From Clostridia bacterium (GTDB taxonomy: Bacteria > Bacillota > TC1 > UBA5767): a stretch of 64,000 nucleotides of DNA. Both the position numbers and the translations under genes were made by a program. The notes under the pieces are model-generated. The model saw only the letters and a program-made list of their open reading frames with translations. It searched no databases and was not told the DNA's origin. The DNA lies in the NCBI GenBank assembly GCA_016887505.1, contig CP069393.1:1164001-1228000 (forward strand), written 5' to 3'. Positions 26,306 through 57,161 of this stretch are shown in pieces; within the stretch, counting starts at the first letter, position 1, and each line of letters begins with the position of its first letter.

Positions 26306-27616
26306 TTAGTCATTGAAAACAGTTTGTCCATCTACTTCTGTTTCAAGAGCACGAAGTGCTTTTTTAACCAAGCGTCTTCTTAACTCTTTCTCATCCTTCT
26401 TACTCAGTGTAGGATCACCAAGTGGGTGAGGGATGGCAATAGTAGGAACGATTCTGTTAGCTCCAACTGTCAATGAAATTGGTACTACAGTACACATGTG
26501 TACTACAGGGAATCCATTACTTTCAATTTCTTTTACCATCGTTGCGCCGCAACGTGTGCAGGTTCCTCAGGTAGAAGTCAAAATAACAGCGTCCACATTG
26601 TCTTCTTTTAGGTATTTTACAATTTCTGCAGCATACGCTTTAGAATTAGCAACGGAAGTTCCGTTACCTACTGTAGCATACCAATAGTTATGAAGTGAAC
26701 CGATTTCTCCAGCTGCTTCCATTTCTCTCAAAACATCGACTGGAATAACGCGGTCCAAATCTTCATTTGCATAGCAAGGGTCATATCCACCGTGAGCAGT
26801 TTCACCGTTTGTTTCATTCAAATCAGTGATACCCTCTAGGCTGTAACGGCCAAATTTAGATGCTGATGAAGATTCAATATGGTCAGGATTGCCTTTAGGC
26901 ACAGGACCACCAGATGAAACAATAGCAATCTTAGCTTTGGTGATATCTTTGACTGCTGGTTGTGGCTCTACGCGGTCGAATACTGGCATAGGATACTCAC
27001 TTACGAACTCTTTGCCATTCAGTTTGTCAACTAGCATGGAAACAGCACGTTTAGCGCCTCTTTCTTCCATGAAAGCATTGACACGAACGCCACGCTCTAA
27101 GTAACCTTCTTCTTCACCAGTTCCAATTGCTTCGCCTCTAGCTAGTTTCAAAGCTAGTGGTGCAATTTTAGCAAGAGCATCTTTCATACCTACTGCACTG
27201 TTTCTGGTTTCGATCATGTATGTATATTTTTTAAACATGTCGGCGCCAGGATTCTCGGTATACATACCGGAAACAGTTGGTACACCCAACTCTTCACTGA
27301 CTGCTTTCGCTACAGCACCTGCTGCTACGCCATAACGTCCGGCGTTAAAAGCAGGGCCAGTGACTACTACATCCGGCTCATGTTTCTTGATTAGCTCAAG
27401 AACAGTAGCGGTTGCTTCATCAATGTTTTCGCCAAAATAGGAATCACCACAAACTACGGTGGCAACGATTTCTGCTTCATCACCGAACAATTGTTTCAGA
27501 CCCATACCTGGACCTTTTACGCCCTCAAATTCCATGGGAGCGACATCGGCTTTATCTTCACCACCAATACCAGCGTAGAACTGGTTGATGTAATGAACGA
27601 CTTTAATTTTTCCCAC
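26306..27616 (-). CDS. grdB: Glycine reductase protein B, selenoprotein subunit (GrdB), with in-frame UGA = Sec350
   Basis: GrdB is the substrate-specific selenoprotein that, with GrdE, binds glycine and passes a carboxymethyl group to GrdA. Translation begins at GTG 27616 after GGGGGG and runs 436 residues through an in-frame TGA (27567 is upstream; the codon is at 26567-26569). The context is ILTST-Sec-GTCTRCGATMVKE, the U-x-x-C-x-x-C redox motif of this family. Reading the TGA as stop would give two false fragments of 349 and 77 residues. A compact hairpin lies just after the UGA. The protein starts VVHYINQFYAG, as in GrdB/F/H; pairing with grdE favours glycine over sarcosine or betaine, but this is not decisive. 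Confidence 0.95.
26540..26554 (-). promoter_or_regulatory. SECIS-like hairpin downstream of the grdB UGA
   Basis: On the minus strand a 6-bp stem CGTTGC/GCAACG with a GGC apex begins 12 nt after the in-frame UGA. Position and size fit a bacterial SECIS element, which recruits SelB. The loop differs from the E. coli fdhF loop, as is normal in clostridia. Confidence 0.6.
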
Positions 27617-43511: not shown

Positions 43512-44660
43512 TTAAAGCCTTTCTCCAATCTGTTTCAAGGCGTCTATCGTGTACTCTATTTCTTCCATCGTAGTCTCATTACCCACAGAAAAACGCATCA
43601 CGCCTTCTGGATATGTGCCCAAAGTTTGGTGGCCTAACGGGGAACAGTGAAGACCAGGTCTTCCCATAATGCCGAATTTTTTATCCAGGACGTAGCATAG
43701 TTCTGAATTGTCTACACCCGCCATATTAAAGGCAACCGTACCCGTACGTTGTTCTAAATTCATCGTGCCATAGATTGTAAGGGCTCCAATCTCCTTCATT
43801 CCCTCTAGCAGTTTCGAGGTAAGAGCCATCTCTTTTTTTCGTTCTTCGGAAATTCCAAATTGAAGCAGATGTTCCATACCTGCTTTCAATCCCATAATAC
43901 CCACGGTATTCAAGGTACCACTTTCAAATTTATCCGGCATAAAATCAGGCTGATCCGCAAGGTGGGAAAGGCTTCCAGTTCCTCCCCTAAGGATTGGCTT
44001 CATGGTGTGAGCTGCTTCTTCACTCAAAACAAATCCTCCGGTTCCGTTTGGTCCCAATAGATGTTTATGACCAGTAAAAGCAAGTACGTCAATATTCTTT
44101 ACCGTTAAGGGTAAAACGCCAGCCGTCTGGGCTGTGTCTACAATCGTGAGAATATTTCTTTCTTTAGCTAAACGCACTACTTCTTCAAGAGGAAATATAT
44201 TGCCACATACATTGGAAGCATGGGACACAACAATCATCTTGGTATTGTGTTTGATGCACTTTGAAAAATCCTCCGGGTCCGTGATTCCATCCTCAGAAGC
44301 CGGAATCACATCGTAGCTAATCTTACCTTCCTTGGCCAAAGCATATACTGGCCGGTATACTGCATTATGCTCCATTCCTGAAATAATGACATGGTCTCCA
44401 GAATCCGCCAGACCCTGTATGGCCATATTAAGGGCCATGGTCACGTTCTGGGCAAAGACCACGTGATCTTCCCTCTCAGCAGAGAAAAAATCTGCTACCG
44501 TCTGTCTTGCAGAAAGCATCCTACGCCCAGCTTCTAAGGAACGTTCATAGCCGCCCCGTCCTGGGTTGGCATTATGGTTCACGAGAAAATCATTCATAGC
44601 TTCTAATACGCAAGCAGGCTTTTTGAAGCTAGTGGCAGCATAATCTAAATACACATTCAT
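43512..44660 (-). CDS. Cysteine desulfurase-like / selenocysteine lyase-like PLP enzyme
   Basis: This is a class-V aminotransferase-fold enzyme of 382 residues. The PLP site is visible as FTGHKHLLGPNGTGG (Lys in GHKH), SHASNVCGNIFPLEEV and IVDTAQTAGVLPL. The Cys in RPGLHCSPLGHQTLGTYPEG is the expected persulfide/perselenide residue of group II desulfurases. This subfamily usually sits beside YedE, TusA-like and DUF3343 genes in selenium-using bacteria, and that is the case here, with yedE diverging from it. It may mobilise sulfur or selenium for selenophosphate synthesis. AAGGGA precedes the start. Confidence 0.9.
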   Translation of the reverse strand: MNVYLDYAATSFKKPACVLEAMNDFLVNHNANPGRGGYERSLEAGRRMLSARQTVADFFSAEREDHVVFAQNVTMALNMAIQGLADSGDHVIISGMEHNAVYRPVYALAKEGKISYDVIPASEDGITDPEDFSKCIKHNTKMIVVSHASNVCGNIFPLEEVVRLAKERNILTIVDTAQTAGVLPLTVKNIDVLAFTGHKHLLGPNGTGGFVLSEEAAHTMKPILRGGTGSLSHLADQPDFMPDKFESGTLNTVGIMGLKAGMEHLLQFGISEERKKEMALTSKLLEGMKEIGALTIYGTMNLEQRTGTVAFNMAGVDNSELCYVLDKKFGIMGRPGLHCSPLGHQTLGTYPEGVMRFSVGNETTMEEIEYTIDALKQIGERL

Positions 44661-44908
44661 AGTTTTCCCTTTCTTTCTCGTTTCATCTAACTAGTCCAAA
44701 TATTGCTTTTCTACTGCTAATATATCACAGAGCCCTAACGATTCCACTATCTAAGCAAAAATAGTTTTTAGCATAGGAAATACTTATGTTTCCAAGGTCT
44801 TGATAGAGAGTTTCTATCGGGGCCATAATCCCCTTTACCACCGCATTTTTTGCAATTATTATGAAGATGCAATAATCAATACTATTTATGTCAAGAAAGG
44901 AACTATTC

Positions 44909-45952
44909 ATGACCAACATTCAGAAAAAACTAATTGTTACCGGCAGTTTCATTGGCCTCATGGCCTCCCTGCTGATGAAGTATGGAAACCCTGGCAACAT
45001 GGGGATTTGTGTCGCTTGCTTTATACGAGATATTGGAGGGGCCTTAGGACTGCATTCAGTGGAAAAACTGAGTTACCTGCGTCCAGAAATTATTGGATTC
45101 ATTCTAGGATCCTTTTTGGCTGCTTTGGCCTTTAAGGAATTTAGGCCCCGAGGTGGTAGCTCACCGGCCACCCGCTTCCTATTAGGCATGATCATGATGA
45201 TTGGGGCCTTGGCCTTCTTGGGTTGTCCGCTCAGGATGTTACTGCGTATGGCCGGCGGAGACTTAAACGCTCTAGTGGGCCTAGCTGGATTCTTAGCTGG
45301 TATCTACATCGGGATCCGGTATTTGAAAAAAGGCTTTTCGCTCGGCAGAAGTTATTCCCAGCACAAAGTAAATGGTGGGATTCTCCCAGTCATAGGAATC
45401 TTCCTACTAATTGGTTTACTACTAGCACCAGCTTTCATCGGTGCTGGCGCAGCACATGCACCGATGATTTTTTCCTTACTAGTTGGTCTGGTAATCGGTG
45501 CCGCCGCACAACGAACCCGTCTATGCACTGCTGGCGCCTTCCGTGATGTCATGTTAATTCGTGATTTTACACTTTTTTATGGTGTCGTTGCCATCTTTGT
45601 GGCCGCCCTTATTGGAAATCTAGTGTTCAATCCAGGATTCTTTCATCTTTCATTTCTTGAGCAACCCGCAGCCCATACCGATGGACTATGGAACTTCTTG
45701 GGTATGCTAGTCGTTGGATTCTCCGCTACCTTGTTGGGTGGATGTCCGCTGCGTCAGACTATACTGGGCGGCGAAGGTGACTCAGACAGTGCCATTACTT
45801 TCTTTGGCCTTTTAACTGGAGCTGCTATCAGCCATAACCTAGGAATGGCTGGTTCTGGAACTGGTCTTGCCATAAACGGCCAAGTGGGCGTCATCGTCTG
45901 TCTCCTTCTTCTGTTTATAGTCGCTACCATGTACAGCCGGGAAACAGCCTAA
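44909..45952 (+). CDS. yedE: YedE-family putative selenium transporter
   Basis: This membrane protein of 347 residues has about nine helices in two repeats of the YeeE/YedE type. Each half has the hallmark GCPLR motif: LGCPLRMLLRMAGGD and GGCPLRQTILGGEGDSDS. Other conserved Cys lie in GICVACFIRD and TRLCTAGAFRD. Relatives move thiosulfate or selenium species; those next to TusA/DUF3343 genes are called putative selenium transporters. The start at 44909 follows AAAGGA by 7 nt; a Met seven codons upstream has no ribosome site. It leads a three-gene operon. Confidence 0.9.
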   Translation: MTNIQKKLIVTGSFIGLMASLLMKYGNPGNMGICVACFIRDIGGALGLHSVEKLSYLRPEIIGFILGSFLAALAFKEFRPRGGSSPATRFLLGMIMMIGALAFLGCPLRMLLRMAGGDLNALVGLAGFLAGIYIGIRYLKKGFSLGRSYSQHKVNGGILPVIGIFLLIGLLLAPAFIGAGAAHAPMIFSLLVGLVIGAAAQRTRLCTAGAFRDVMLIRDFTLFYGVVAIFVAALIGNLVFNPGFFHLSFLEQPAAHTDGLWNFLGMLVVGFSATLLGGCPLRQTILGGEGDSDSAITFFGLLTGAAISHNLGMAGSGTGLAINGQVGVIVCLLLLFIVATMYSRETA

Positions 45953-45985
45953 TTGATATTAAAAAATGAAAAGAGGTATGATAAA

Positions 45986-46195
45986 ATGATTGAAGTAGAT
46001 GCAAGAGGAAGAAGCTGTCCGGAACCCGTCGTAATGACCAAAAAGGCTCTTGATCGCTACGATGGTCAAGAAATTGTAGTTTTGGTTGATACCAACGTGG
46101 CCAAAGAAAACGTAAGCCGTTTGGCTAAAAATTCAGGTTTTACGATTTCACTTACGCAAGAAGGTGAAGATATCCGGATTACGTGCACCAAATAG
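45986..46195 (+). CDS. TusA-like sulfur/selenium carrier protein
   Basis: This 69-residue protein has the TusA fold with the persulfide-carrying Cys in SCPEPVVMTKKAL (CPxP motif). In the related YedF proteins this domain is fused to a DsrE-like domain; here it is alone. It probably hands sulfur or selenium between the transporter or desulfurase and acceptor proteins. The start at 45986 (MIEVDARGR) uses AGAGG ~9 nt upstream. It lies 33 nt after yedE and 14 nt before the DUF3343 gene. Confidence 0.88.
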   Translation: MIEVDARGRSCPEPVVMTKKALDRYDGQEIVVLVDTNVAKENVSRLAKNSGFTISLTQEGEDIRITCTK

Positions 46196-46209
46196 TAAGG
46201 AGCAAAACG

Positions 46210-46467
46210 ATGATTAAAGGATACGTAACCTTTCATTCTGTCTCAGATTCACTGAAATTTGAGAAGACTGTCAAAGAAAGTGGCTTAGAAGTTCAGTTGG
46301 TACCCGTTCCTAGGGAAATTAGTTCCAGTTGCGGTGTTGCCGCCATGTTTCCATCTGAAATGGAACAGGCCGTGCGGGATTTCATTCAAGGTCATAATCT
46401 AGAAGTAGCGGATATCCATATGCTAGAGCAAGCAGGAAAGAAGAAAGGCTTACTCGACCGATTTTAA
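46210..46467 (+). CDS. DUF3343 family protein (putative Se/S carrier)
   Basis: This 84-residue protein matches the small DUF3343 family found with YedE and TusA genes. The conserved part is SLKFEKTVKESGLEVQLVPVPREISSSCGVAA, whose Cys is the likely sulfur- or selenium-binding residue. No biochemical role is known to me. The start at 46210 follows AAGGAG by 7 nt. It is the last gene of the plus-strand selenium operon and is followed by a terminator. Confidence 0.86.
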   Translation: MIKGYVTFHSVSDSLKFEKTVKESGLEVQLVPVPREISSSCGVAAMFPSEMEQAVRDFIQGHNLEVADIHMLEQAGKKKGLLDRF

Positions 46468-46486: not shown

Positions 46487-46519
46487 AAGAAGCGCTCCCT
46501 GCGGGGAGCGCTTCTTGTA
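46487..46519. terminator. Bidirectional terminator between selenium and sulfur operons
   Basis: AAGAAGCGCTCC pairs with GGAGCGCTTCTT over a short GC-rich apex. It lies between convergent genes and has T-rich flanks on both sides. Confidence 0.85.
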
Positions 46520-46556: not shown

Positions 46557-47852
46557 TTAATTCTGTCTTTGATCCAACATATCCAAAACCGTTTGGTCCA
46601 TGCGTTGCATCCCTTGGCTGCTAACAGCCTCTAGATTGGCAATCGATGCTTCCGTGGATACTTCTACTATTCCTTGTACATCGTTCAAATAGACCCCATT
46701 TACGGACATCATAGCATACGTAAAGGCTTCCACTGCCGCAGTCTCAAGTTTAAGAGCACAAGTACCTTTCGCACCATCGCACAAGGTTCCAGTCAGGTTG
46801 GCTATCATTCCCTTAATCGCGCCTTCAATCTGAGCTAATGAGCCACCAGCAAGCCAAGATAATCCTGCCGCCGCACCCAATCCTGCCGAAACACTACAGC
46901 CACATAGAGGAGATAGTTTCCCCAAGTAGGATTTTGCCAATGCATTGGTCAAATTGGCAATGGCCAAGGCACGAAGTAAATCCTCCCGAGATTTCGAATT
47001 GTACTCGCAATAGGCATGTAAAGGAAGTGTAATCAAAAGTCCTTGGTTACCACTGCCACAGCTAGTCATAACCGGCAACTTGGCACCGCCCATCCGTGCA
47101 TCTGCTGCTGCTGAAACCTGGATGCGGATCTTTGTCAAAAGATCATCACAAAGCAAGCCTTGATCAACCAATTGTTTCAAGCCCCTGCCGATACCCAAAC
47201 CGTACGCTTTCTTTTGCCCTAATTCTGAAATTTTGCTGTTCATTTGAACGGCCTCTTCCAGCCAAGCAATGTCTTCTAGGGGTGTTGAAGTCGCAAAATC
47301 GAGTATTTGGGAAATCGTAACTTTTCTCATGGCTGCTAAAGTATCTTCTGCAGCAAGCTTTGGCGAACCAGCTTTATTATCACCGTCTTCTTGCAAAATT
47401 TGTCCGTTTACAGAAACCTGAATAAAACGGTCATGGCTACCCCCGATGATGGCCGTTGCTTCGCCCTCAGACGTCTTAAGTGTTGCTTTGACATAAACAT
47501 CGTAATCGGATTCAGTATACCCTAATTCCAAAATATTCTTCTTAACATATGCCCTGGCTTCTTCTTTTTCTGCATCAGAAGCGACTTCAAGAATCCTCAT
47601 ACCCAACTCAGGTTTTTTCACCAATACACCCATGAAAGCAGCCATGCCAATACCCTTTTCATCTGTTCCAGGTATACCAACTGCACTAGCATTCTTGTAT
47701 AGTCCCTTGCTGGCTACGATATGCAGTGATTGTATTTCACCAGAAATGAGACTTGCAGCTTTGGCACAGGCCAAAGCAATCGCTACTGGTTCAGTACATC
47801 CTGTTGCAGGCTTTACTTGTTCTGTGAGCACTTGGTTGAAATATGTATTCAT
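46557..47852 (-). CDS. cyuA: L-cysteine desulfidase family protein (CyuA/UPF0597)
   Basis: This iron-sulfur enzyme family degrades L-cysteine to sulfide, ammonia and pyruvate (CdsB/CyuA, related to serine dehydratase alpha). The 431-residue sequence has the motif TGCTEPVAIALACAKA at residues ~17-32, the central MTSCGSGNQGLLITLPL, and the Cys-rich PLCGCSVSAGLGAAAGL and CDGAKGTCALKLETAA segments whose Cys should hold the 4Fe-4S cluster. It is the last gene of the sulfur operon, 15 nt after the UPF0280 gene, with AAGGAG before the start. Its product sulfide is the substrate expected for the upstream homocysteine genes. Confidence 0.9.
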   Translation of the reverse strand: MNTYFNQVLTEQVKPATGCTEPVAIALACAKAASLISGEIQSLHIVASKGLYKNASAVGIPGTDEKGIGMAAFMGVLVKKPELGMRILEVASDAEKEEARAYVKKNILELGYTESDYDVYVKATLKTSEGEATAIIGGSHDRFIQVSVNGQILQEDGDNKAGSPKLAAEDTLAAMRKVTISQILDFATSTPLEDIAWLEEAVQMNSKISELGQKKAYGLGIGRGLKQLVDQGLLCDDLLTKIRIQVSAAADARMGGAKLPVMTSCGSGNQGLLITLPLHAYCEYNSKSREDLLRALAIANLTNALAKSYLGKLSPLCGCSVSAGLGAAAGLSWLAGGSLAQIEGAIKGMIANLTGTLCDGAKGTCALKLETAAVEAFTYAMMSVNGVYLNDVQGIVEVSTEASIANLEAVSSQGMQRMDQTVLDMLDQRQN

Positions 47853-47867
47853 TCGTCCTCTCCTTGT

Positions 47868-48605
47868 CTAAATCCTTGTCAACAACATCTGTCCAACTAC
47901 GACCAATTGATCGCGCCGTACTGCTAAAATTCCATCTATCCCATCATATTTCAGATACTTCTCTAAAATTGGCTCTATTGGCTGGCTTTCTCCAATTTGA
48001 TTACAAATGGCGGTGGCCATGGCATCTGCCAAAGCGCCCTCTTTCGCTTTCACCACTACAGCATCTGCTTTGCCAAACGAAAAAGAATGCCCTACAGTCC
48101 CCGACGAGGTACATAGGGATATCGGCATCTCTGTAGCTCGTATTGTCAGTCCAATGCGGTTGGAAAAAGGTGAATCGCCAGCATAGATTGCTATGACTAA
48201 GTCCTCTGCACAATCTACGAATAGGTCACCGCCGTTCTCGGCAATCACTTCTGCCACACCCATACATTTCGCCTGTTCTGCAATACATTGGGCAAAGGTG
48301 CCGGCTACAGCAGCCATCGGTCCCGTTCCAGCAATTTTTCCGGCTTGAATCATCGTTTGAACGATAGCCGGTGCTGAAGGATCCTCCGCAATGGGGTTCA
48401 AAGAAATATTAAACTCTGGTCGCACCTCAATATAGCAATCTAAGAGCGTGTACAAACTTTTTTGTAGTTTTTTGAGTGAGATTTCCAGTCTTTCAGGTTC
48501 TTGCACCTCTCCCAAACCTACCCAAATATCACTCGCCTGGTGTTTAAGCAGAAAATGATGGGGAAAACGTTTCCCCATCCATTCTCTGTATGTCCTCTCT
48601 TGCAT
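47868..48605 (-). CDS. UPF0280 family protein (ApbE-like fold)
   Basis: This 245-residue protein is of the UPF0280/COG2122 family, related in fold to the FAD-transferase ApbE. Typical segments are GTGPMAAVAGTFAQCIAEQA, EVIAENGGDLFVDC and GLTIRATEMPISLCTSSGTVGHSF. In methanogens this family has been linked genetically to homocysteine biosynthesis with DUF39 and NIL-ferredoxin proteins; its chemistry is unknown. The ATG at 48605 overlaps the stop of the ferredoxin gene (TAATG), so I take it as the start, although the frame is open further upstream. Confidence 0.86.
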   Translation of the reverse strand: MQERTYREWMGKRFPHHFLLKHQASDIWVGLGEVQEPERLEISLKKLQKSLYTLLDCYIEVRPEFNISLNPIAEDPSAPAIVQTMIQAGKIAGTGPMAAVAGTFAQCIAEQAKCMGVAEVIAENGGDLFVDCAEDLVIAIYAGDSPFSNRIGLTIRATEMPISLCTSSGTVGHSFSFGKADAVVVKAKEGALADAMATAICNQIGESQPIEPILEKYLKYDGIDGILAVRRDQLVVVGQMLLTRI

Positions 48606-49003
48606 TAGATTCCTAGTGTAATGGCTCTTCTCGGACATGCTTTCACACACATTCCGCAGGCCACACATAAATCTGGTTTCAACTCCACCTCTGAGGTGCG
48701 ACGATTAATAGTTAATGCACCCACCGGGCAAACAGCAGTGCATGAACCGCAATCTACACAAAGATTACGATCCAACTCGATTTCTTCACTCATACGGTGA
48801 ATGGCAACACCTTCTGCCTTGATGAAGGCGATGGCTTCATCTAACCTCTTACCATTCATCTCAAGAACCAGTACACCTTCTTCACCGGCTTCTATCTTGG
48901 CTGAGATAATATTAATCTTAATATCGAAATCCTTAACCAAAAGATAGGTGATTGGCTTTTCAGTAGCCTTCTGATGAAAGTTAAGGATATATTTCTTACT
49001 CAT
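48605..49003 (-). CDS. NIL-domain ferredoxin (2x 4Fe-4S), putative homocysteine-synthesis subunit
   Basis: This 132-residue protein combines an N-terminal NIL domain (KYILNFHQKATEKPITYLLV) with two 4Fe-4S sites, CVDCGSCTAVCP and CVACGMCVKACP. The same pairing with a DUF39 protein is implicated in making homocysteine from aspartate semialdehyde and sulfide in methanogens and other anaerobes, where the ferredoxin supplies electrons or carries sulfur. The start at 49003 overlaps the DUF39 gene's last 8 nt (ATGAGTAA) and follows GGAGG by 8 nt, so the two are coupled. Confidence 0.9.
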   Translation of the reverse strand: MSKKYILNFHQKATEKPITYLLVKDFDIKINIISAKIEAGEEGVLVLEMNGKRLDEAIAFIKAEGVAIHRMSEEIELDRNLCVDCGSCTAVCPVGALTINRRTSEVELKPDLCVACGMCVKACPRRAITLGI

Positions 49004-50171
49004 CGTTGCTGCCTCCATTTCCGCCCAGATTCTTTAGACTTGTATTTTCAGGGAACATGCGTACCGGTTCTGTCAAAGTAAAGTCACCAGCCATGATCCA
49101 TTCTTTTAAGGTTTGCGCAATCTTTCGTGCCTTGGGAATACTAGACATCGGTGCAGTCCGTACTTTTTTGCCGTTCAATTCCACTGTACCACTCTTTAGG
49201 CTCTTGTAATCGATACGACCATAAGTAGGCTTATCTCGTTTAGGCACACTATAATCTACGATAGTCGTAAAAATTTCCTCATCACGTACACAAACATTTT
49301 TTAGTATATCCATATCTAGTAGAGGAATCGGCAATCCCATTCCAATATAAATCGATACCCCGTAACGTTCCATGACTGCCGACTGAATAAACTCAGCACT
49401 CATCTCTTTTAAGTCACCAATCAAGCTTAAGGTCGCCGCTGGCGCTACTGGTATCCCGTTTTCTAAACGTTCAACATTGGTCTTAAATTGAGTTCCATTC
49501 CAGGCAATATGTCCTTGGGCACCACCCAAGAAAATCTTGGTTCCCACTCCTATGGTGCGGTAAGTAGGATCATTCAAGAGTGGACTTAATTGACCGGACG
49601 TCGCATAATTCATATTCTTAAAATTGGGATATAAAATGCCCATATAGGTGTAAATCGTCTTTTGTGAGCCATTAACTGCTGCCGCATAGTTTTGGTAACA
49701 GTTCCTAGGATTGAACATGATGGCCTCGTTGATGGAATCCAAGGTAATCTTATAATTGCATTCACGGCCGGGATAGCAATCTGTAACCGAGCCCGTAGCA
49801 TATAAGTCAATTTCTTCACCCTTTAGCAAGGATTCAATGACATGGGCGCCACCGTACAAATCATCTCCATGATGGTCCTCAGCCAACTCACCAGCACCCA
49901 AAAATGCATCTACTGCCGCAAGCCCCGCATAAGCCGGAACACCGTTTAACAGCGTCTTATTCATTTTAATAGGTGGATCATCGTGCCCAAAATTTAAAAA
50001 TACACCAGAGGAACACATGGGGCTAAACGTTCCTGTGGTTACTACGTCTACTTTTTCAAATGTTTTTTCCATTCCGTCTTTATCGACTAAATCAATAATC
50101 TCTTCTGCTGTCACAGCAACCGCCTTGCCGCTCAAGATTCTTTCATTTATCTCTTGTATGGTTTTCTTCAT
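48996..50171 (-). CDS. DUF39/COG1900 homocysteine biosynthesis protein
   Basis: This 391-residue protein belongs to the DUF39 family (COG1900), the main subunit proposed to convert aspartate semialdehyde and sulfide to homocysteine. Conserved elements include TTGTFSPMCSSGVFLNFGHDDPP with a Cys, YGGAHVIESL, TDCYPGRECNYKI with two Cys, and FLGGAQGHIAWNGTQF. This variant lacks C-terminal CBS or ferredoxin extensions, which agrees with a separate NIL-ferredoxin gene directly downstream. The start at 50171 uses AGGAGA. It is gene three of the six-gene operon. Confidence 0.9.
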   Translation of the reverse strand: MKKTIQEINERILSGKAVAVTAEEIIDLVDKDGMEKTFEKVDVVTTGTFSPMCSSGVFLNFGHDDPPIKMNKTLLNGVPAYAGLAAVDAFLGAGELAEDHHGDDLYGGAHVIESLLKGEEIDLYATGSVTDCYPGRECNYKITLDSINEAIMFNPRNCYQNYAAAVNGSQKTIYTYMGILYPNFKNMNYATSGQLSPLLNDPTYRTIGVGTKIFLGGAQGHIAWNGTQFKTNVERLENGIPVAPAATLSLIGDLKEMSAEFIQSAVMERYGVSIYIGMGLPIPLLDMDILKNVCVRDEEIFTTIVDYSVPKRDKPTYGRIDYKSLKSGTVELNGKKVRTAPMSSIPKARKIAQTLKEWIMAGDFTLTEPVRMFPENTSLKNLGGNGGSNDE

Positions 50172-50219
50172 AAACGATTGTCTCCTTTTCTCGATTGCTC
50201 CCATTATATCACTCGGCTC

Positions 50220-50663
50220 CTAGAATTCAATGGAACCCGGAAATAAGCTCCTATCCTTATAGATCATGACTGTTCCGGTCATCTTAGAACAAAGTTGACC
50301 CTCTTCATCACGTAAGCACATTTCGTAAATACCCAATGTCCTACCACGTTTTATTTCCACAGCTTGAACCTCTAGTTTTTCACTTTTAGGTGCTCTTAGC
50401 AAATGAAAATCCATCTGTGTCCCTATCGCCATACAACCATAGGAATTAGAAGCCGCAGCAAATGCAAAGTCACACAAGGTAAACAGTGCGCCTCCCATCA
50501 CCATACCAGCTGCATTTAGGTGGCTGGCATTGACTTTCATGCTAGCCTTAGCCCATCCAAAGTCAATATCTTCTAAAAGCATTCCATTCTCCCCAGCAAA
50601 ACGGTCCTGCAGAAAATAGTTGATGAATGCCTCTTTTCTTTTTTGGGTAAATACCCCTTTCAT
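50220..50663 (-). CDS. PaaI-family hotdog thioesterase
   Basis: This 147-residue protein has the hotdog fold of PaaI-type acyl-CoA thioesterases. It shows the active-site region NAAGMVMGGALFTLCDFAFA, followed by GTQMDFHLLRAPKSEKLEVQ. The substrate acyl group is unknown. The gene lies 3 nt after the HD-domain gene and 48 nt before the DUF39 gene, so it is in the sulfur operon, perhaps by chance of gene order. GAGGT precedes the ATG. Confidence 0.88.
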   Translation of the reverse strand: MKGVFTQKRKEAFINYFLQDRFAGENGMLLEDIDFGWAKASMKVNASHLNAAGMVMGGALFTLCDFAFAAASNSYGCMAIGTQMDFHLLRAPKSEKLEVQAVEIKRGRTLGIYEMCLRDEEGQLCSKMTGTVMIYKDRSLFPGSIEF

Positions 50664-50666
50664 ATT

Positions 50667-51218
50667 CTACCTCGTTTCCACTCTTTTAGGAATAAATTTT
50701 TTAAAAGACCAAGGCAGAGACTCTTGATTTTTTATTGGAGCCAACTCCTCTTGAAGCTGTTTCAAGCGCAAACGCTTAGATGCACTTAGGTTTTTACCAG
50801 GTTCTTCATAGTAACGACTCATAAGGTCTGCGTCCTTGATCAGCTCAGCATAGCTAGCTAGTTCCACCTTATCCTTTCGGTTATGACGTTTAATGGCCTT
50901 CTTAATAATTTTCAACTCCGTATCATTAAATAGGCCCGTATCCGCAAGGATTTTTTTCGCTAGCTTGGCCCCTTCGGAAACATGTTTTTCACCATCCCAG
51001 CCCATCTCAATACGGCCGATGTCATGCATCAGACCAATTACACAAGCTATATCTGGCACTAAGCCACGTCGGTAGGCTAGGTGCTGCGACCACTGGGAAA
51101 CACCATATAGATGATGTAATTCTTCCAAGAATTGTTTGCGGCTCATGCGCTTTTCTTCATAAGCACTCCAAATACATTTTTCCATTATGGAGCGAACCAC
51201 AACCACGCGTTTTTTCAT
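50667..51218 (-). CDS. HD-domain phosphohydrolase-like protein
   Basis: This 183-residue protein has an HD metal site: first His in SQHLAYRRG, HD in LMHDIGRIEMG, a later His in KRHNRKD and Asp in LIKDADLMSRYY. Similar proteins hydrolyse nucleotides or cyclic dinucleotides, for example YqeK/YedJ-like. The substrate is unknown. AAGGAG lies 5 nt before the ATG. It is the first gene of the sulfur operon and its promoter region is adjacent to the IS110-like element. Confidence 0.85.
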   Translation of the reverse strand: MKKRVVVVRSIMEKCIWSAYEEKRMSRKQFLEELHHLYGVSQWSQHLAYRRGLVPDIACVIGLMHDIGRIEMGWDGEKHVSEGAKLAKKILADTGLFNDTELKIIKKAIKRHNRKDKVELASYAELIKDADLMSRYYEEPGKNLSASKRLRLKQLQEELAPIKNQESLPWSFKKFIPKRVETR

Positions 51219-51342
51219 ATTTTCTCCTTGTATTATGAACTTATAGCAAGCTATAGTTCAAAAGTATTTTGATATAATTTACATAGTGCTGTGGATTAGT
51301 GCTTTCTCCTATAGCTTTGACTATTTCGTAAAGGCTCTAACC

Positions 51343-51461
51343 ACATCTCTATGTTTTTTTGTTAATGAGTTAGATAACACGTAGATGTTTTATCTCGGGC
51401 AAGGTTACATGACATAGATGCTTGTGGAGCGCAGCAACTTTTTAGTAAAGGATGTGTCACT
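51343..51461 (+). ncRNA. Candidate IS110 bridge RNA region
   Basis: The non-coding left end can form two stem-loops. In the first, ACATCT (51343-51348) pairs with AGATGT (51383-51388), enclosing a second helix TGTTA/TAACA (51360-51364 with 51375-51379) across an internal loop. In the second, CAAG (51400-51403) pairs with CTTG (51421-51424). This layout fits the bridge RNAs of IS110 elements, which pair with target and donor through internal loops. No guide matching was done. Confidence 0.35.
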
Positions 51462-52625
51462 ATGATCTATGTTGGTATCGATGTCGCCAAGAATAAACAT
51501 GACTGCTTTATTGTTGATTCGGAGGGTGAAATCATCCATAACGTATTCACCTTCAAAAACTCTCGCCAGGGTTTCAACCTATTACTGCAAACCATTCCTG
51601 ACGTGAGTCACTCGCAAATACTAATAGGACTTGAAGCCACTGGACATTACAGCAATAATCTCATCAACTTCCTGACAGAAAACAATCTTCCCGTGATTAT
51701 TCTCAATCCTCTGCAAACCAGTCTTTTCAGAAAAGCTCAAACGCTTAGAAAGACCAAAACAGATTCGGTTGATGCAAAAACCATTACTATGATGCTCAGA
51801 ACAGGTGACTTCAAATCCCACTCACCTGTATCTTACCACCATAGAGAGCTCAAGTCACTTTCTAGACACCGATCGCGTCTTGTCAAAACCAGAGCTTCTT
51901 ACAAAATGTCCATCACTAGATTGTTAGATATCGTTTTCCCGGAGCTCCCAGCCTTGGTCTGGTCTATCCATCAGGCTTCTGTCTATCAGCTCCTACTGGC
52001 TTTTCCTAACACTCGAGAAATTGCCGATGCTCACCTAACCAAGCTTACTCATGTCCTTAGTAAAGCTTCCCATGGACGTTATGGAAAAGAAGAAGCTGTA
52101 GCTATTCGTGATTCTGCCAGAACATCTATTGGCACATGTTCACCATCTTTATCCTATGAACTTAAGCAAACCATTCACTTGATACAAAACCTGCAGAACG
52201 AGATTAAAGAGCTGGATCAAATAATTGAACAGCTTGTTGGTGAACTGAATTCTCCCTTGCTCAGCATACCTGGCATTTCCCATCGGTTGGCAGCTGTCAT
52301 CCTCTCGGAAATCGGAGACATCACCAGGTTTGAATCTCCCGCTAAGCTGCTTGCCTTCGCAGGGTTGGATCCATCCACACATCAGTCTGGCAAGTTCACA
52401 GCGACTCAAACCAGAATGGTCAAGCGAGGATCCCCTTACTTGCGCTGGGCCCTCCTGCAAGCCGCCAGGTTGATTGTGATGCGAGATGCGACCTTCAAAG
52501 AGTACTATAAGAAGAAACGTTCTGAAGGCAAACATCACTATGTCGCTCTGTCTCATACAACTAAAAAGCTGATCCGGGTCATCTTTAAACTATTGTCTAG
52601 CAACCAGAACTATGTCGAGCAGTAG
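51462..52625 (+). CDS. IS110-family transposase/recombinase
   Basis: This 387-residue recombinase has an N-terminal RuvC-like DEDD domain (IYVGIDVAKNKHDCFIVD with the first Asp, LIGLEATGHYSNNL with Glu, and KTDSVDAKTI with the last Asp pair). The C-terminal Tnp_20 domain has SIPGISHRLAAVILSEIGDI, LLAFAGLDPSTHQSG and RGSPYLRWALLQAARLI, which contains the conserved Ser. The frame is intact, so the element may still be active. The start at 51462 follows AAAGGA. In this family a bridge RNA from the element directs target choice. The gene is opposite in strand to its neighbours. Confidence 0.95.
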   Translation: MIYVGIDVAKNKHDCFIVDSEGEIIHNVFTFKNSRQGFNLLLQTIPDVSHSQILIGLEATGHYSNNLINFLTENNLPVIILNPLQTSLFRKAQTLRKTKTDSVDAKTITMMLRTGDFKSHSPVSYHHRELKSLSRHRSRLVKTRASYKMSITRLLDIVFPELPALVWSIHQASVYQLLLAFPNTREIADAHLTKLTHVLSKASHGRYGKEEAVAIRDSARTSIGTCSPSLSYELKQTIHLIQNLQNEIKELDQIIEQLVGELNSPLLSIPGISHRLAAVILSEIGDITRFESPAKLLAFAGLDPSTHQSGKFTATQTRMVKRGSPYLRWALLQAARLIVMRDATFKEYYKKKRSEGKHHYVALSHTTKKLIRVIFKLLSSNQNYVEQ

Positions 52626-52651
52626 TAACTAGTTGAAATTGTTTGCCACAT

Positions 52652-52675
52652 GTAGCAAAATTGCTACGTCTTTTT
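52652..52675 (+). terminator. Terminator-like hairpin after the transposase
   Basis: GTAGCA/TGCTAC stem with an AAAT loop, followed by GTCTTTTT. It lies 26 nt after the transposase stop, inside the proposed right end. Confidence 0.65.
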
Positions 52676-52748
52676 ATGATGCGAAAATCCCCATTATAGT
52701 TCTCTTGAACAATTAAATGTTTTGCTTGACTTCATATAGTTAGTCTTA

Positions 52749-53495
52749 TCAGATGGCTGTAAACCCACCATCTGAAATCAATGTTGCCCCGTATACAAAG
52801 CTAGAATCATCACTTGCCAAGAATAAGGCCGCACCAGCAATCTCATCTGCCTCAGCCATCCTCTTTGCAGGAATCAATTTGGCAAATTCCTGTAGGCCTT
52901 CTTCTCCCAATCCATCCATCATTGGTGTCATCGTTGCACCTGGACACAAACAGTTAGCGCGGATATTTTCCTTAGAATAATCGGCAGCCATACTCTTCGT
53001 CAATAACACGACAGCCCCTTTGGAAGAACTATATGCATGCAATCCATCCGCGCCTACGGTACCTGCAGTTGAGGCCACATTGATGATATTGCCACCGCCC
53101 CTTTTACGCATTACGGGTACTGCCCACTTACAAAAAGCAAAGGTTGAGCGCACGTTCACGTTAAAAATATAGTCCCAATCCTCATAGCTTAAGTTCTCTA
53201 TGGTACCTGCGGTTGCGATGCCAGCACAGTTTAGTAAAATGTCTATCCCCTCAAACTCTATATCAATTGTTTGGGTTAGTGCGTCGATATCCGCCAAAGC
53301 AGAAACATCGCAACGATAAAAAACTGCTGTATGTCCCATTCCCTTAATAGTTTCAACTAAGTCTTTACCACTTTTTTCGTTTCTTCCTGTCAAAATTAAG
53401 CTGGCGCCTTCTTTGGCAAAACGCAAGGCTGTTGCCTTACCAATGCCCGAAGTAGCCCCTGTGATCATGGCAATTTTTCCTTCTAGTTTACCCAT
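52749..53495 (-). CDS. SDR-family oxidoreductase (FabG-like)
   Basis: This is a classical short-chain dehydrogenase of 248 residues. It has TGATSGIGKATALRF at residues 12-26, LLNCAG (in place of the usual NNAG) at 87-92, a catalytic Ser at ~142 and Tyr155-x3-Lys159 (YSSSK). It resembles 3-oxoacyl-ACP reductase and glucose/sorbitol dehydrogenases, but no fatty-acid genes are near. GGAGG lies 5 nt before ATG. It follows the VOC gene by 9 nt and is the last gene of the RNA-processing operon before the IS110 element. No terminator is seen after it. Confidence 0.9.
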   Translation of the reverse strand: MGKLEGKIAMITGATSGIGKATALRFAKEGASLILTGRNEKSGKDLVETIKGMGHTAVFYRCDVSALADIDALTQTIDIEFEGIDILLNCAGIATAGTIENLSYEDWDYIFNVNVRSTFAFCKWAVPVMRKRGGGNIINVASTAGTVGADGLHAYSSSKGAVVLLTKSMAADYSKENIRANCLCPGATMTPMMDGLGEEGLQEFAKLIPAKRMAEADEIAGAALFLASDDSSFVYGATLISDGGFTAI

Positions 53496-53504
53496 TATGT
53501 CCTC

Positions 53505-53879
53505 CTAGTTTCTTTTTCTCTGCATGATTTCTATGCGTTCTTTGTTCGGGCCTCTGAAAAAGAAATAGGCCACATCGTCATTGTCCTCTAGTTCTTCATC
53601 AATCTCATATCCGCCAGACACAATTCGGTCATATTCCGCCTTTGCATCGTTCGCATGAAAACACAAATGATTAACCGGTCCATCACAAGTTGGAACCATA
53701 CCTGCCTGTTTCACCAATTCAATGTCGAAATCTCCAAATAAAACATGTTGGATTATAAGATCTTTTGCTAAAACCAATTTTTCTTGTAAACTTCCACCTA
53801 AAACTTCTTGGTAAAATTTTGCAGATACTGACAAATCATCTACAAAAATCCCCACATGTCCTTGCGTTAATTTACTCAT
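53505..53879 (-). CDS. VOC/glyoxalase-fold protein
   Basis: This 124-residue protein has the vicinal-oxygen-chelate fold: GHVGIFVDDLSVSAKFYQEVLGG at the start with a metal-ligand His, VNHLCFHANDAKAEYDRIVSGG in the middle with further His, and FFFRGPNKERIEIMQ with the Glu ligand. Members include lactoylglutathione lyase, methylmalonyl-CoA epimerase and many unassigned enzymes. The ATG overlaps the last 8 nt of the RlmL-like gene (ATGAGTAA), showing translational coupling. GGAGA is the ribosome site. Confidence 0.88.
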   Translation of the reverse strand: MSKLTQGHVGIFVDDLSVSAKFYQEVLGGSLQEKLVLAKDLIIQHVLFGDFDIELVKQAGMVPTCDGPVNHLCFHANDAKAEYDRIVSGGYEIDEELEDNDDVAYFFFRGPNKERIEIMQRKRN

Positions 53880-55011
53880 TTATATCTCCTTTCGGGGGTC
53901 TAGGCCCATAATATTGATAGTAATTACACTGAATACGCCCATTATATAGTTTACGCTTCCTGTCGGCATTTTTTCTTGCCAATCTTTCAAATCCTCGATG
54001 TGAGGTAATTACATATTTGGACCAAGTAGGAAGTGTTCGAAATAAATCCCCCATATCCCGGTACATCGCTTCAACTTCATCCTTTTCGCCCATCCGTTCG
54101 CCGTAGGGCGGATTACAGATGATGACACCATAGTCCCCTTTGAAAGGCATTTTATGAAAATCCGCATGAACTAGCCTAATTTGGTCTTCTACACCTGCCC
54201 TTTTAATGTGGCGTTCAGCTAACTTTAGGGCATTTAAATCTCGGTCCGAACCCACTATATTCAGTTTAGCATCCCAGTCGGTTGCATCCACTGCCTCGTC
54301 ACGCATATCACTGTAAATATCCTTCGGAAAATTAGACCAACTTTCAAAGGCAAATTCCCGATTCAATCCTGGCGCCATGTTCATACCTATCAGTGCGGCT
54401 TCAATTAGAATTGTCCCTGAACCGCAAAAAGGATCAACCAAGGGCCGGTTTTTATCCCAATAGCTTAGCTTCACCATCGCTGCAGCTAGCGTTTCCTTTA
54501 GTGGTGCAATCGCATTATAGTCACGGTAGCCACGTTTATGTAATCCGACTCCGCTCGTGTCAATGGTTAGCGTCGCAATATCTTTTAGTAAGGATACCTG
54601 AATCTTATAAAGAGAGTCCGTTTCATCCAGCCACTCCATACCATAGGCCTGGCCTAGACGCGCTGCAACAGCCTTCTTGGTGATGCGCTGGCAGTCAGAA
54701 ACACTAAACAGTGTAGATTTTACCGATTTTCCTTCTACCGGGAAAATACCATTCTTATGAATCCAGTCCTCCCAAGGCAAGGCACGCACGCCCTCAAATA
54801 ACTCATCAAACGTCCTGGCAGGAAAAGTTCCCATCTCCAAGAGTACACGATCCGAAGTACGAAGCCAAAAATTGGCCTTGACCATCTCCGGATAGCCACC
54901 AGCAAAGTAGACCTTCCCGTTTTCAACTAATAAGGGCTCAAGCCCCAGTTCTTCCAATTCCCTTTTTACGATGGCTTCTAACCCGAAAGCCGCGGTCGCA
55001 ATCAATCTCAT
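53872..55011 (-). CDS. THUMP-domain 23S rRNA methyltransferase (RlmL/YpsC-like)
   Basis: This 379-residue protein has an N-terminal ferredoxin-like/THUMP region (MRLIATAAFGLEAIVKREL ... SDCQRITKKAVAARL) and a SAM methyltransferase domain with VDPFCGSGTILIEAAL (motif I), VGSDRDLNALKLAERH and the base-binding NPPYGER (motif IV). E. coli RlmL methylates N2 of G2445 in 23S rRNA; the Bacillus YpsC group has this N-terminal half alone, as here. It lies 8 nt after the YhaM-like gene. Its end overlaps the VOC gene. Confidence 0.92.
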   Translation of the reverse strand: MRLIATAAFGLEAIVKRELEELGLEPLLVENGKVYFAGGYPEMVKANFWLRTSDRVLLEMGTFPARTFDELFEGVRALPWEDWIHKNGIFPVEGKSVKSTLFSVSDCQRITKKAVAARLGQAYGMEWLDETDSLYKIQVSLLKDIATLTIDTSGVGLHKRGYRDYNAIAPLKETLAAAMVKLSYWDKNRPLVDPFCGSGTILIEAALIGMNMAPGLNREFAFESWSNFPKDIYSDMRDEAVDATDWDAKLNIVGSDRDLNALKLAERHIKRAGVEDQIRLVHADFHKMPFKGDYGVIICNPPYGERMGEKDEVEAMYRDMGDLFRTLPTWSKYVITSHRGFERLARKNADRKRKLYNGRIQCNYYQYYGPRPPKGDINE

Positions 55012-55019
55012 ATAAACCC

Positions 55020-55964
55020 CTATTTCTTATATCGGTATACTCGCCTATTATCCAAAGAGAACACACGCTCGCTCATTTCTCCAGGTTCAACATCCTTCAA
55101 AGCATCTTCAAAACTGTATAGTCTCGCATCCATCATATCGATATAGTGGAGCATTTCTGCTTCGGGAATCATGGGCATTTTGGGACTTCCATATTCCGGT
55201 CGCTGATGATGTGACAAAACCATATGTTGTAAAACTAGCGATTTTTCCTTAGGAATATTGGCTTCATCGCAGTATTTTTCGATGTTCTTGACCCCCATAA
55301 CAAGGTGCCCCAGCAATTCACCCTCCAAGGTATATTCCGCAAGGCCTAATTCATCCGACGATAGTTCTCCCACTTTTTCTATATCATGCAGGATGACCCC
55401 CGCAAAAAGCAAATCCCTATCCAAGTTTGTATATACTTTACTCACGCCTTCAGCTACTTGTAGCATGCGCAATACATGATAGAGCAAACCACTCCGAATC
55501 GCATGGTGCATCGCCTTTGCTGCTGGATAATACATAAGCTCCTTGCGGTTGCTTTCTAAGAAATTAAAACATACTTTACGAATATCTGGATCTTCTATTT
55601 TTCTGGCAAATTCCGTAACGCTCTCATACATATCCTTACCCGAAAACGGTGCAGCGGCTACAAAATCTTCCACCTTTACGCCATCTTCTTCATTGGCCTT
55701 GCGTATTTTCACAATATTCATTTGAGCCTTACCCCTAAACTCGGCAATTCTTGCCATGACTTTTACTAGAGTTCCCTTGCGATATTTGTTGGCATCCTTA
55801 GGATCACATTTCCATACTTTGGCATTAATGACACCTGTGGGATCAGACAAAGTAATATCTAAATAGCAGCCGTTCGCCCCCTCTTTCAGTGTCATTTCCT
55901 TGACCAAGTAGTAACCAATCACCTCCTGATTGGTCTTTAAATCGCTGATCTGTGAATTTTCCAT
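55020..55964 (-). CDS. YhaM-like 3'-5' exoribonuclease (OB fold plus HD)
   Basis: This 314-residue protein has an OB-fold nucleic-acid-binding domain at residues ~15-100 (DITLSDPTGVINAKVW) and an HD phosphohydrolase domain with HHAIRSGLLYHVLRML, GVILHDIEKVGEL and HHQRPEYGSPKMPMIPEA. This is the layout of Bacillus YhaM and staphylococcal CbfA, which degrade short RNA and single-stranded DNA from the 3' end. It follows the CCA-adding enzyme gene directly and precedes the rRNA methyltransferase gene, so the operon is for RNA maturation. Confidence 0.93.
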   Translation of the reverse strand: MENSQISDLKTNQEVIGYYLVKEMTLKEGANGCYLDITLSDPTGVINAKVWKCDPKDANKYRKGTLVKVMARIAEFRGKAQMNIVKIRKANEEDGVKVEDFVAAAPFSGKDMYESVTEFARKIEDPDIRKVCFNFLESNRKELMYYPAAKAMHHAIRSGLLYHVLRMLQVAEGVSKVYTNLDRDLLFAGVILHDIEKVGELSSDELGLAEYTLEGELLGHLVMGVKNIEKYCDEANIPKEKSLVLQHMVLSHHQRPEYGSPKMPMIPEAEMLHYIDMMDARLYSFEDALKDVEPGEMSERVFSLDNRRVYRYKK

Positions 55965-57161
55965 CTATTTTCCCCTCTCAAGTAATAATTGTATTAGTTT
56001 ATCTCTTTCATTCAAGGATTCATCCAAATACACCTGTTGAAGCAACCAACGTAGGCCAGAGCCAATTTGTTCCTTTCGCAAACCGAGTGCGATAAGTTCT
56101 TTCGCATCTATATCCAAATCGTACACAGTGATGGCCTCATGCTTCTCACATATTCTAACATACAGCGGTGTTTTTTTTGCATAAAACTGTGTATACAACC
56201 GACAAACTAGCCTCCGCTCTTTTTCATCCAAATTTGAAAGTTCTGTCTTGGCTAGTTCAATTGCGTCACCACCAAGCAATCTAGTGGCATGATACATTTT
56301 TTCAGCCTTTTTCCAGTATTTTTTGTTATAGCCTAGTCCATCATAGAGAATCATGGGTGGAATGCCAACACAACTAGCAAATTGAGCCAGTTTCATCGTA
56401 AATGGCTGATGACCGTTCAAGCACGACATATCTGTTGATATTTGTTGGCCCCAAATAGCTGGAAATATAAGTTGAAAAACATCCAAATCCGCAATACAAG
56501 AAAAGGTATCCCCGGTATTGGATTCATTCCATATTTTCAGAAGTTCCCGATGTACTACTTCCTTCCGAAGAAGCGATATTTGACTACGAAAAGAGCATAG
56601 CGCTTGTTTTATTTCCTGGGAAAACTCGGCTTGTCTGACTAAAGACACGCGCCCGAATAAACGGAGTGCCCGAATCATTCTCAAAGCATCTTCTTGAAAG
56701 GAAATGGCCGCAGGTCGAGTTGTTCTGATATCTATCGGTCTTTTCCCCAAATCTTCTCGCGCCTTAAATGGGTCTACGATTTCTTTTGTGCTACAATCGT
56801 AAGCCATACTATTGAGCACAAAATCACGGCGCAAAAGATCTTCTTCTAATTCAGCATTGAAGCTAATCTCAAGGGGATGTCTTGCATCTGTGTAACTTTC
56901 TTCCTTACGAAACAGGCTAATTTCAACTTTCATTTCCAGAAAGTGCATGGACAAGGTCCCGTGGATGCGGTCAATCCTACTAGTATGGTAATTTTTTGCA
57001 ATCGTTTCCAATAAGTCAAGATTACCTTTAAAAGCGATATCGTAATCTAGCGGTACCATGCCCAAAAGCAAGTCCCTCAGAGCTCCGCCCACGATATAAG
57101 ATCTGACCCCCAATTTATGCAATTCCTCTACCAATGCATTCACTTCTTTTGGCATCATCAT
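55965..57161 (-). CDS. CCA tRNA nucleotidyltransferase / poly(A) polymerase family
   Basis: This class-II nucleotidyltransferase has 398 residues. The active-site start IVGGALRDLLLG is followed by the LDYDIAF pair of Asp that bind metal. Then come RRDFVLNSMAYD, EDALRMIRALRLFGR (helical neck) and an all-helical tail. It adds CCA to tRNA 3' ends, or A alone if it is the A-adding half of a split system; sequence alone does not settle this. The start is the first of three consecutive Met codons, 8 nt after AGAGG. It is the first gene of a five-gene operon. Confidence 0.92.
   Translation of the reverse strand: MMMPKEVNALVEELHKLGVRSYIVGGALRDLLLGMVPLDYDIAFKGNLDLLETIAKNYHTSRIDRIHGTLSMHFLEMKVEISLFRKEESYTDARHPLEISFNAELEEDLLRRDFVLNSMAYDCSTKEIVDPFKAREDLGKRPIDIRTTRPAAISFQEDALRMIRALRLFGRVSLVRQAEFSQEIKQALCSFRSQISLLRKEVVHRELLKIWNESNTGDTFSCIADLDVFQLIFPAIWGQQISTDMSCLNGHQPFTMKLAQFASCVGIPPMILYDGLGYNKKYWKKAEKMYHATRLLGGDAIELAKTELSNLDEKERRLVCRLYTQFYAKKTPLYVRICEKHEAITVYDLDIDAKELIALGLRKEQIGSGLRWLLQQVYLDESLNERDKLIQLLLERGK

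Follow-up and report, generated by a model that had tools for sequence, protein, structure and literature searches.

A homocysteine-from-sulfide gene cassette within the cyuA operon of a single genus of Clostridia

Introduction

Formation of homocysteine in Desulfovibrio vulgaris requires DUF39, a NIL-domain ferredoxin (NIL-ferredoxin) and COG2122, homoserine is not an intermediate, and COG2122 mutants are methionine-requiring (PMC5764234). The corresponding pair of DUF39 and NIL-ferredoxin in Methanosarcina acetivorans has been named L-aspartate semialdehyde sulfurtransferase; the enzyme has two conserved cysteines, Cys54, which is essential, and Cys131, and coenzyme M is the product of a related protein of COG1900 (PMC12068725). 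The L-cysteine desulfidase CyuA, for its part, is used catabolically by Escherichia coli (PMC9040844), whereas the CyuA of Methanococcus maripaludis, for which the roles of catalytic and cluster residues have been described, hands the sulfur of cysteine to 4Fe–4S tRNA-sulfuration enzymes in vitro, permits slow growth with cysteine as sole sulfur source and accepts selenocysteine (PMC12647591). Here we describe a locus from a Clostridia bacterium (Bacillota; TC1; UBA5767) in which genes of both kinds stand in one operon, at positions 46557–51218 of a stretch of 64,000 nucleotides (referred to as the window; contig CP069393.1, positions 1,164,001 to 1,228,000, of assembly GCA_016887505.1). The explanation that we favour, with a probability of about 0.62, is that, in the ancestor of one genus, a known homocysteine cassette and a thioesterase (TE) gene together entered an existing operon between its HD-domain gene and cyuA.

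Results

The core genes correspond to the published homocysteine cassette

Six open reading frames were verified on the minus strand, encoding, in order, an HD-domain protein, a TE, DUF39, NIL-ferredoxin, a UPF0280 (COG2122) protein and CyuA (Table 1). When junctions and start codons were judged base by base from the sequence, the mechanically assigned starts of three of the six genes were probably slightly too early; DUF39, for example, probably starts at the ATG at 50171 (MKKT, matching the genus mates) rather than at 50204. With NIL-ferredoxin starting at MSKK, its gene and that of DUF39 overlap by 8 nucleotides; with UPF0280 starting at MQERT, NIL-ferredoxin and UPF0280 share a single base (TAATG); and UPF0280 is followed after a gap of 15 nucleotides, containing AAGGAG, by cyuA. 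The tight placement of these four genes pointed out in an earlier note on the window is thereby confirmed, and the six-gene order is identical in both other species of the genus (3/3 species), so the arrangement is not due to chance.

The DUF39 protein matched PF01837 (HcyBio) with 489 bits, above the curated cut-off and over the entire profile (1–349 of 349). In an alignment of 57 sequences its Cys64 was invariant and its Cys143 was conserved in at least 90%; these were equated with Cys54 and Cys131 of the M. acetivorans enzyme by conservation and spacing, MA1821 itself not being part of the alignment. NIL-ferredoxin combines PF09383 with two 4Fe–4S motifs and so provides the partner that the DUF39 sulfurtransferase requires. 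The UPF0280 protein matched PRK04334.1-3 with an E-value of 2e-72 but a score of 243.5 bits, under the cut-off of 271, and it matched a solved member of the family, PDB 2o34 (E 5e-33). Judged by these family and residue matches, the three core genes are the already known system for making homocysteine from sulfide, and the assignment of DUF39 and NIL-ferredoxin to such a system in the earlier note agrees with the published cassette. Membership of the cassette also gives COG2122 a role that is established genetically. It had been suggested that UPF0280 might serve as a flavin-loading factor; this is disfavoured by the methionine requirement of the D. vulgaris mutants and by the homology of COG2122 to ApbE, which seems to stop short of the flavin-binding region (PMC5764234).

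The locus thus has the same three families as the pathway of D. vulgaris and M. acetivorans (MA1821–MA1822 and MA1715), with both conserved DUF39 cysteines, and it shares with most cassette loci of Bacillota three adjacent genes in the same fixed order. It differs in that the methanogen DUF39 enzyme has a C-terminal CBS domain which the protein described here lacks, in that the cassette lies inside an operon with HD, TE and cyuA genes, and in that the genome also carries the standard metA–metY route. The AlphaFold model of DUF39 was confident (pLDDT 93.5, pTM 0.91) and had no match in the PDB at an E-value of 0.001 or better; the protein may therefore have a fold with no solved relative, and the fold offers no clue to mechanism.

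The cassette and the TE gene probably entered an existing operon

In both genus mates (loci L048 and L049), methyltransferase, OB-HD and nucleotidyltransferase genes lie upstream of an SDR gene, which is directly followed by HD, TE, DUF39, NIL-ferredoxin, COG2122 and CyuA. In the sister genus (locus L228 of genome G262) the order is nucleotidyltransferase, OB-HD, methyltransferase, SDR, HD and CyuA; the HD and CyuA genes overlap, with neither a TE gene nor the cassette between them. Since the sister genus has HD and CyuA side by side, the simplest account is probably that TE and cassette were inserted between them in the ancestor of the genus. In a tree of DUF39 proteins the genus formed one clade with support of 100. 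Its wider placement was weak (support 66 for a group including members from Bacteroidota and Spirochaetota), so a donor of the cassette cannot be named.

Two points weigh against this account. Genome G262 is a draft, 86% complete and with 6% contamination, so that loss in the sister genus, rather than insertion, stays an alternative. Moreover, the six-gene order and core junctions of 1–15 nucleotides are common to all three species even though the CyuA proteins of the genus mates are only 66–81% identical to that of the window, which makes selection for joint expression plausible.

The former upstream part of the operon is preserved in the window beyond an IS110 element of about 1.5 kb (51219–52748; three near-identical copies in the genome), which separates SDR from HD and splits the ancestral operon in this genome only. 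The gene order in this part (52749–57161) matches that of L048 and L049 and, minus the glyoxalase-like gene, that of L228.

Table 1. Features of the cyuA operon and its surroundings (positions in the window)
Feature	Position	Strand	Basis and remarks
HD-domain protein	50667..51218	-	183 aa; PF01966; adjoins CyuA in the sister genus too, where the cassette is absent
Hotdog-fold (PaaI-like) thioesterase, TE	50220..50663	-	147 aa; PF03061 (4HBT), TIGR00369; at this place in the genus only
DUF39/HcyBio, COG1900a-type aspartate-semialdehyde sulfurtransferase (predicted)	48996..50204	-	PF01837; probable true start 50171
NIL-domain ferredoxin	48605..49018	-	PF09383, Fer4; eight cysteines for two 4Fe–4S clusters; probable start MSKK
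UPF0280/COG2122 protein	47868..48668	-	PRK04334 family, PDB 2o34; probable true start 48605
CyuA, 4Fe–4S L-cysteine desulfidase (predicted)	46557..47852	-	PF03313, 9fsl, residue matches
Terminator-like hairpin	46487..46516	.	13 bp, perfect; read from sequence
YedE, TusA-like, Se/S carrier module	44888..46467	+	TIGR04112, PF01206, PF11823; separate convergent unit
IS110-family transposase	51462..52625	+	PF01548, PF02371
SDR, glyoxalase-like, RlmK/L-type methyltransferase, OB-HD, CCA-type nucleotidyltransferase	52749..57161	-	Pfam; former upstream operon part

The cassette is widespread but its link to CyuA is confined to one genus

Among 348 genomes of the phylum, 117 encoded a PF01837 protein, and 100 DUF39 loci were fetched, 2 from the genus and 98 from outside it, the window's own genome being additional to these. 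COG2122 lay after DUF39 in the same orientation in 99 of the 100 loci, and the full trio was scored in 87. Outside the genus, the order DUF39, NIL-ferredoxin, COG2122 was present in 85/98 loci, DUF39 and COG2122 with NIL-ferredoxin under the score limit in 12/98, and DUF39 alone in 1/98. A second collection, spanning Bacillota, Bacteroidota, Spirochaetota, Actinomycetota, Deltaproteobacteria, Atribacteria and archaea, contributed 80 more loci, three of which were on the same contigs as loci of the first set, giving 175 distinct loci outside the genus. Within the fetched flanks, which were sometimes short but reached at least 3 kb downstream of DUF39 in 90/100 and 62/80 loci of the two sets, CyuA, TE and HD were found at none of the 98 outside loci of the first collection (0/98) and at none of the second (0/80); linkage of these genes to DUF39 was thus found at 0 of the 175 distinct loci and did not recur across independent lineages, whereas both genus mates showed the full six-gene order. 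The taxonomic order of the window's organism was represented by 10 genomes, with DUF39 only in the three members of the genus. Strong CyuA homologues were encoded by 88 of the 348 genomes, and 23 genomes carried both DUF39 and CyuA, where 29.6 would be expected by chance (odds ratio 0.62, p 0.09); in the 20 co-carriers outside the genus the two genes lay on separate contigs or at a distance of over 30 kb. The cassette itself is therefore widespread across Bacillota, and its link to CyuA is a genus-level arrangement which does not recur.

These data bear directly on the proposal, made in the earlier note, that CyuA works with the cassette as a dedicated module through which cysteine sulfur reaches homocysteine with no cystathionine step. 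In such a module sulfide might even pass straight from the CyuA cluster to DUF39. The tight gene order is conserved in three species and, as M. maripaludis CyuA serves tRNA-sulfuration enzymes in vitro and supports slow growth on cysteine (PMC12647591), CyuA might hand sulfur to DUF39 directly. Nevertheless, a link restricted to the genus and missing from all 175 other loci, co-occurrence not above chance, a sister-genus CyuA found at the same point of its operon although the cassette is missing there, and the presence in the genome of hom, metA–metY and cysK–cysE make such a module unlikely. A narrower version, in which CyuA became the dedicated donor for DUF39 in this genus alone, handing over cluster-bound cysteine sulfide directly and so allowing cysteine-driven homocysteine synthesis free of a riboswitch for S-adenosylmethionine (SAM), we consider quite improbable. 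Part of what the earlier note had named as counting against its proposal was indeed found: the metY route is complete by gene content, and the neighbourhood of nearly every relative lacks CyuA. A bypass in this genus is possible, though less likely than was assumed, and transfer of sulfur from cysteine to homocysteine is the forward direction of trans-sulfuration, not the reverse as the note had termed it.

CyuA and the neighbouring selenium/sulfur genes

CyuA belongs to the SDH_alpha family (PF03313), and its closest solved chain is the L-cysteine desulfidase 9fsl (E 4e-29), whereas the match to L-serine dehydratase reached an E-value of only 0.009. In the alignment with 9fsl, Cys19, Glu21, Cys317, Cys358 and Cys365 align with the catalytic Cys and Glu of the GCTE motif and with the three cluster cysteines, as these were described for M. 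maripaludis CyuA (PMC12647591). The sequence therefore favours a desulfidase rather than a serine dehydratase and to that extent supports the earlier view of CyuA as a genuine desulfidase. The protein is of the same family as CyuA of E. coli and M. maripaludis, with cluster-binding and catalytic residues present, but its operon is without an adjacent importer gene cyuP and its gene directly follows the homocysteine cassette.

Downstream of cyuA, a selenium/sulfur module including a desulfurase-like enzyme spans 43512–46467, and parts of it recur near CyuA in L228 and L229. A GrdB-like reductase protein is encoded at 26306–27616, where the mechanical reading frame ends at an in-frame TGA (26567–26569) that we read as selenocysteine, with a SECIS_4 match at 26529–26566; such a selenoprotein fits an amino-acid fermenter, in which CyuA use would possibly be catabolic. 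It could be argued that CyuA works with the module, freeing sulfide or selenide by cleavage of cysteine or selenocysteine, and that the cassette is a passenger: module genes adjoin CyuA in the sister genus and lie near it in L229, the closest CyuA outside the family, CyuA accepts selenocysteine (PMC12647591), and the organism encodes a selenoprotein. However, the module is convergent with the cyuA operon, the terminator-like hairpin with which the cyuA operon ends lies between the two (the facing operon being that of YedE, TusA and the carrier), and no module gene was nearby in the other 18 fetched CyuA loci, so that we hold this explanation to be doubtful at best.

The cassette lies outside SAM riboswitch control

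A SAM riboswitch was present in 16/20 and 10/11 other DUF39 loci (26/31), mostly just upstream of DUF39, and cassette neighbours in other genomes include MetH, methylenetetrahydrofolate reductase (MTHFR), aspartate-semialdehyde dehydrogenase and GHMP kinases, all of which supports a general role of the cassette in methionine supply. Unlike most Bacillota cassette loci, the window yielded no SAM riboswitch, and none was found in the genus-mate loci, in the sister loci, at metY or elsewhere in the window's genome. The cassette is thus outside SAM riboswitch control here and, as it lies in the cyuA operon, its expression would be expected to follow that operon. A candidate internal promoter ahead of DUF39 (50230–50203, extended −10) was also present in genome G188 but missing in G163 and was not relied upon.

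Standard sulfur routes are also encoded

A search of the genome, family by family, identified homoserine dehydrogenase (hom), aspartate-semialdehyde dehydrogenase (asd) and MetH. MetY scored above its cut-off, MetA 4.5 bits below the acetyltransferase cut-off, and their genes overlap (locus L003, 1465–3686), with no Rfam leader there at the gathering threshold; CysK overlaps CysE, the latter named from its sequence. With hom, asd, metA–metY and cysK–cysE encoded, the standard routes from sulfide to homocysteine and from sulfide to cysteine look complete. Direct sulfhydrylation by MetA–MetY, encoded away from the cassette, likewise makes homocysteine from sulfide and a carbon skeleton of the aspartate family but, unlike the cassette, uses activated homoserine and pyridoxal phosphate. 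Carrying both routes is common, MetY being above cut-off in 52/117 genomes with DUF39, compared with 145/231 without it.

At another locus (L002) a methionine gamma-lyase-like gene is lined up with genes for MtnA-like, class II aldolase-like and amidohydrolase (methylthioadenosine deaminase-like) proteins, an array that resembles a methylthioadenosine salvage cluster.

The redundancy with the standard homocysteine route, together with the lack of a SAM riboswitch in the genome and the coenzyme M synthesis of a related COG1900 protein (PMC12068725), might suggest that methionine supply is not the function of the cassette here and that it possibly acts on another aldehyde. Against this, the protein gives a full HcyBio match with the family cysteines conserved, and nearly half of DUF39 genomes have MetY too (the 52/117 above); we regard the idea as very improbable. 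Coenzyme M synthase itself (methanogenesis marker 16, COG1900d) was tried and rejected, DUF39 scoring 135.6 bits against TIGR03287, far under the cut-off of 363.95.

Discussion

We return to the insertion of a known cassette and a TE gene into an existing operon as the explanation that best accommodates these data. Gene content, order, distribution, key residues, the standard route and the lack of the riboswitch are observations; for this organism we infer the following reactions, flux and control. DUF39 would take sulfide or persulfide onto Cys64, assisted in sulfur loading by COG2122, and transfer it to L-aspartate semialdehyde; NIL-ferredoxin would reduce the thio-intermediate to homocysteine, which MetH would convert to methionine. 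CyuA would cleave cysteine to give pyruvate, ammonia and sulfide, a reaction that probably belongs to amino-acid fermentation, and the sulfide would join a shared pool open to DUF39, MetY and CysK.

If the link to CyuA is functional, cysteine sulfur would reach homocysteine by a path free of cystathionine, and the DUF39 system would have a defined source of sulfide. Through the SAM riboswitch and neighbours such as MetH and MTHFR, our survey adds support from regulation and gene context for the role of the cassette in methionine synthesis across Bacillota. As matters stand, the main lesson is that a widespread and poorly annotated cassette can enter another operon and lose its usual control by SAM.

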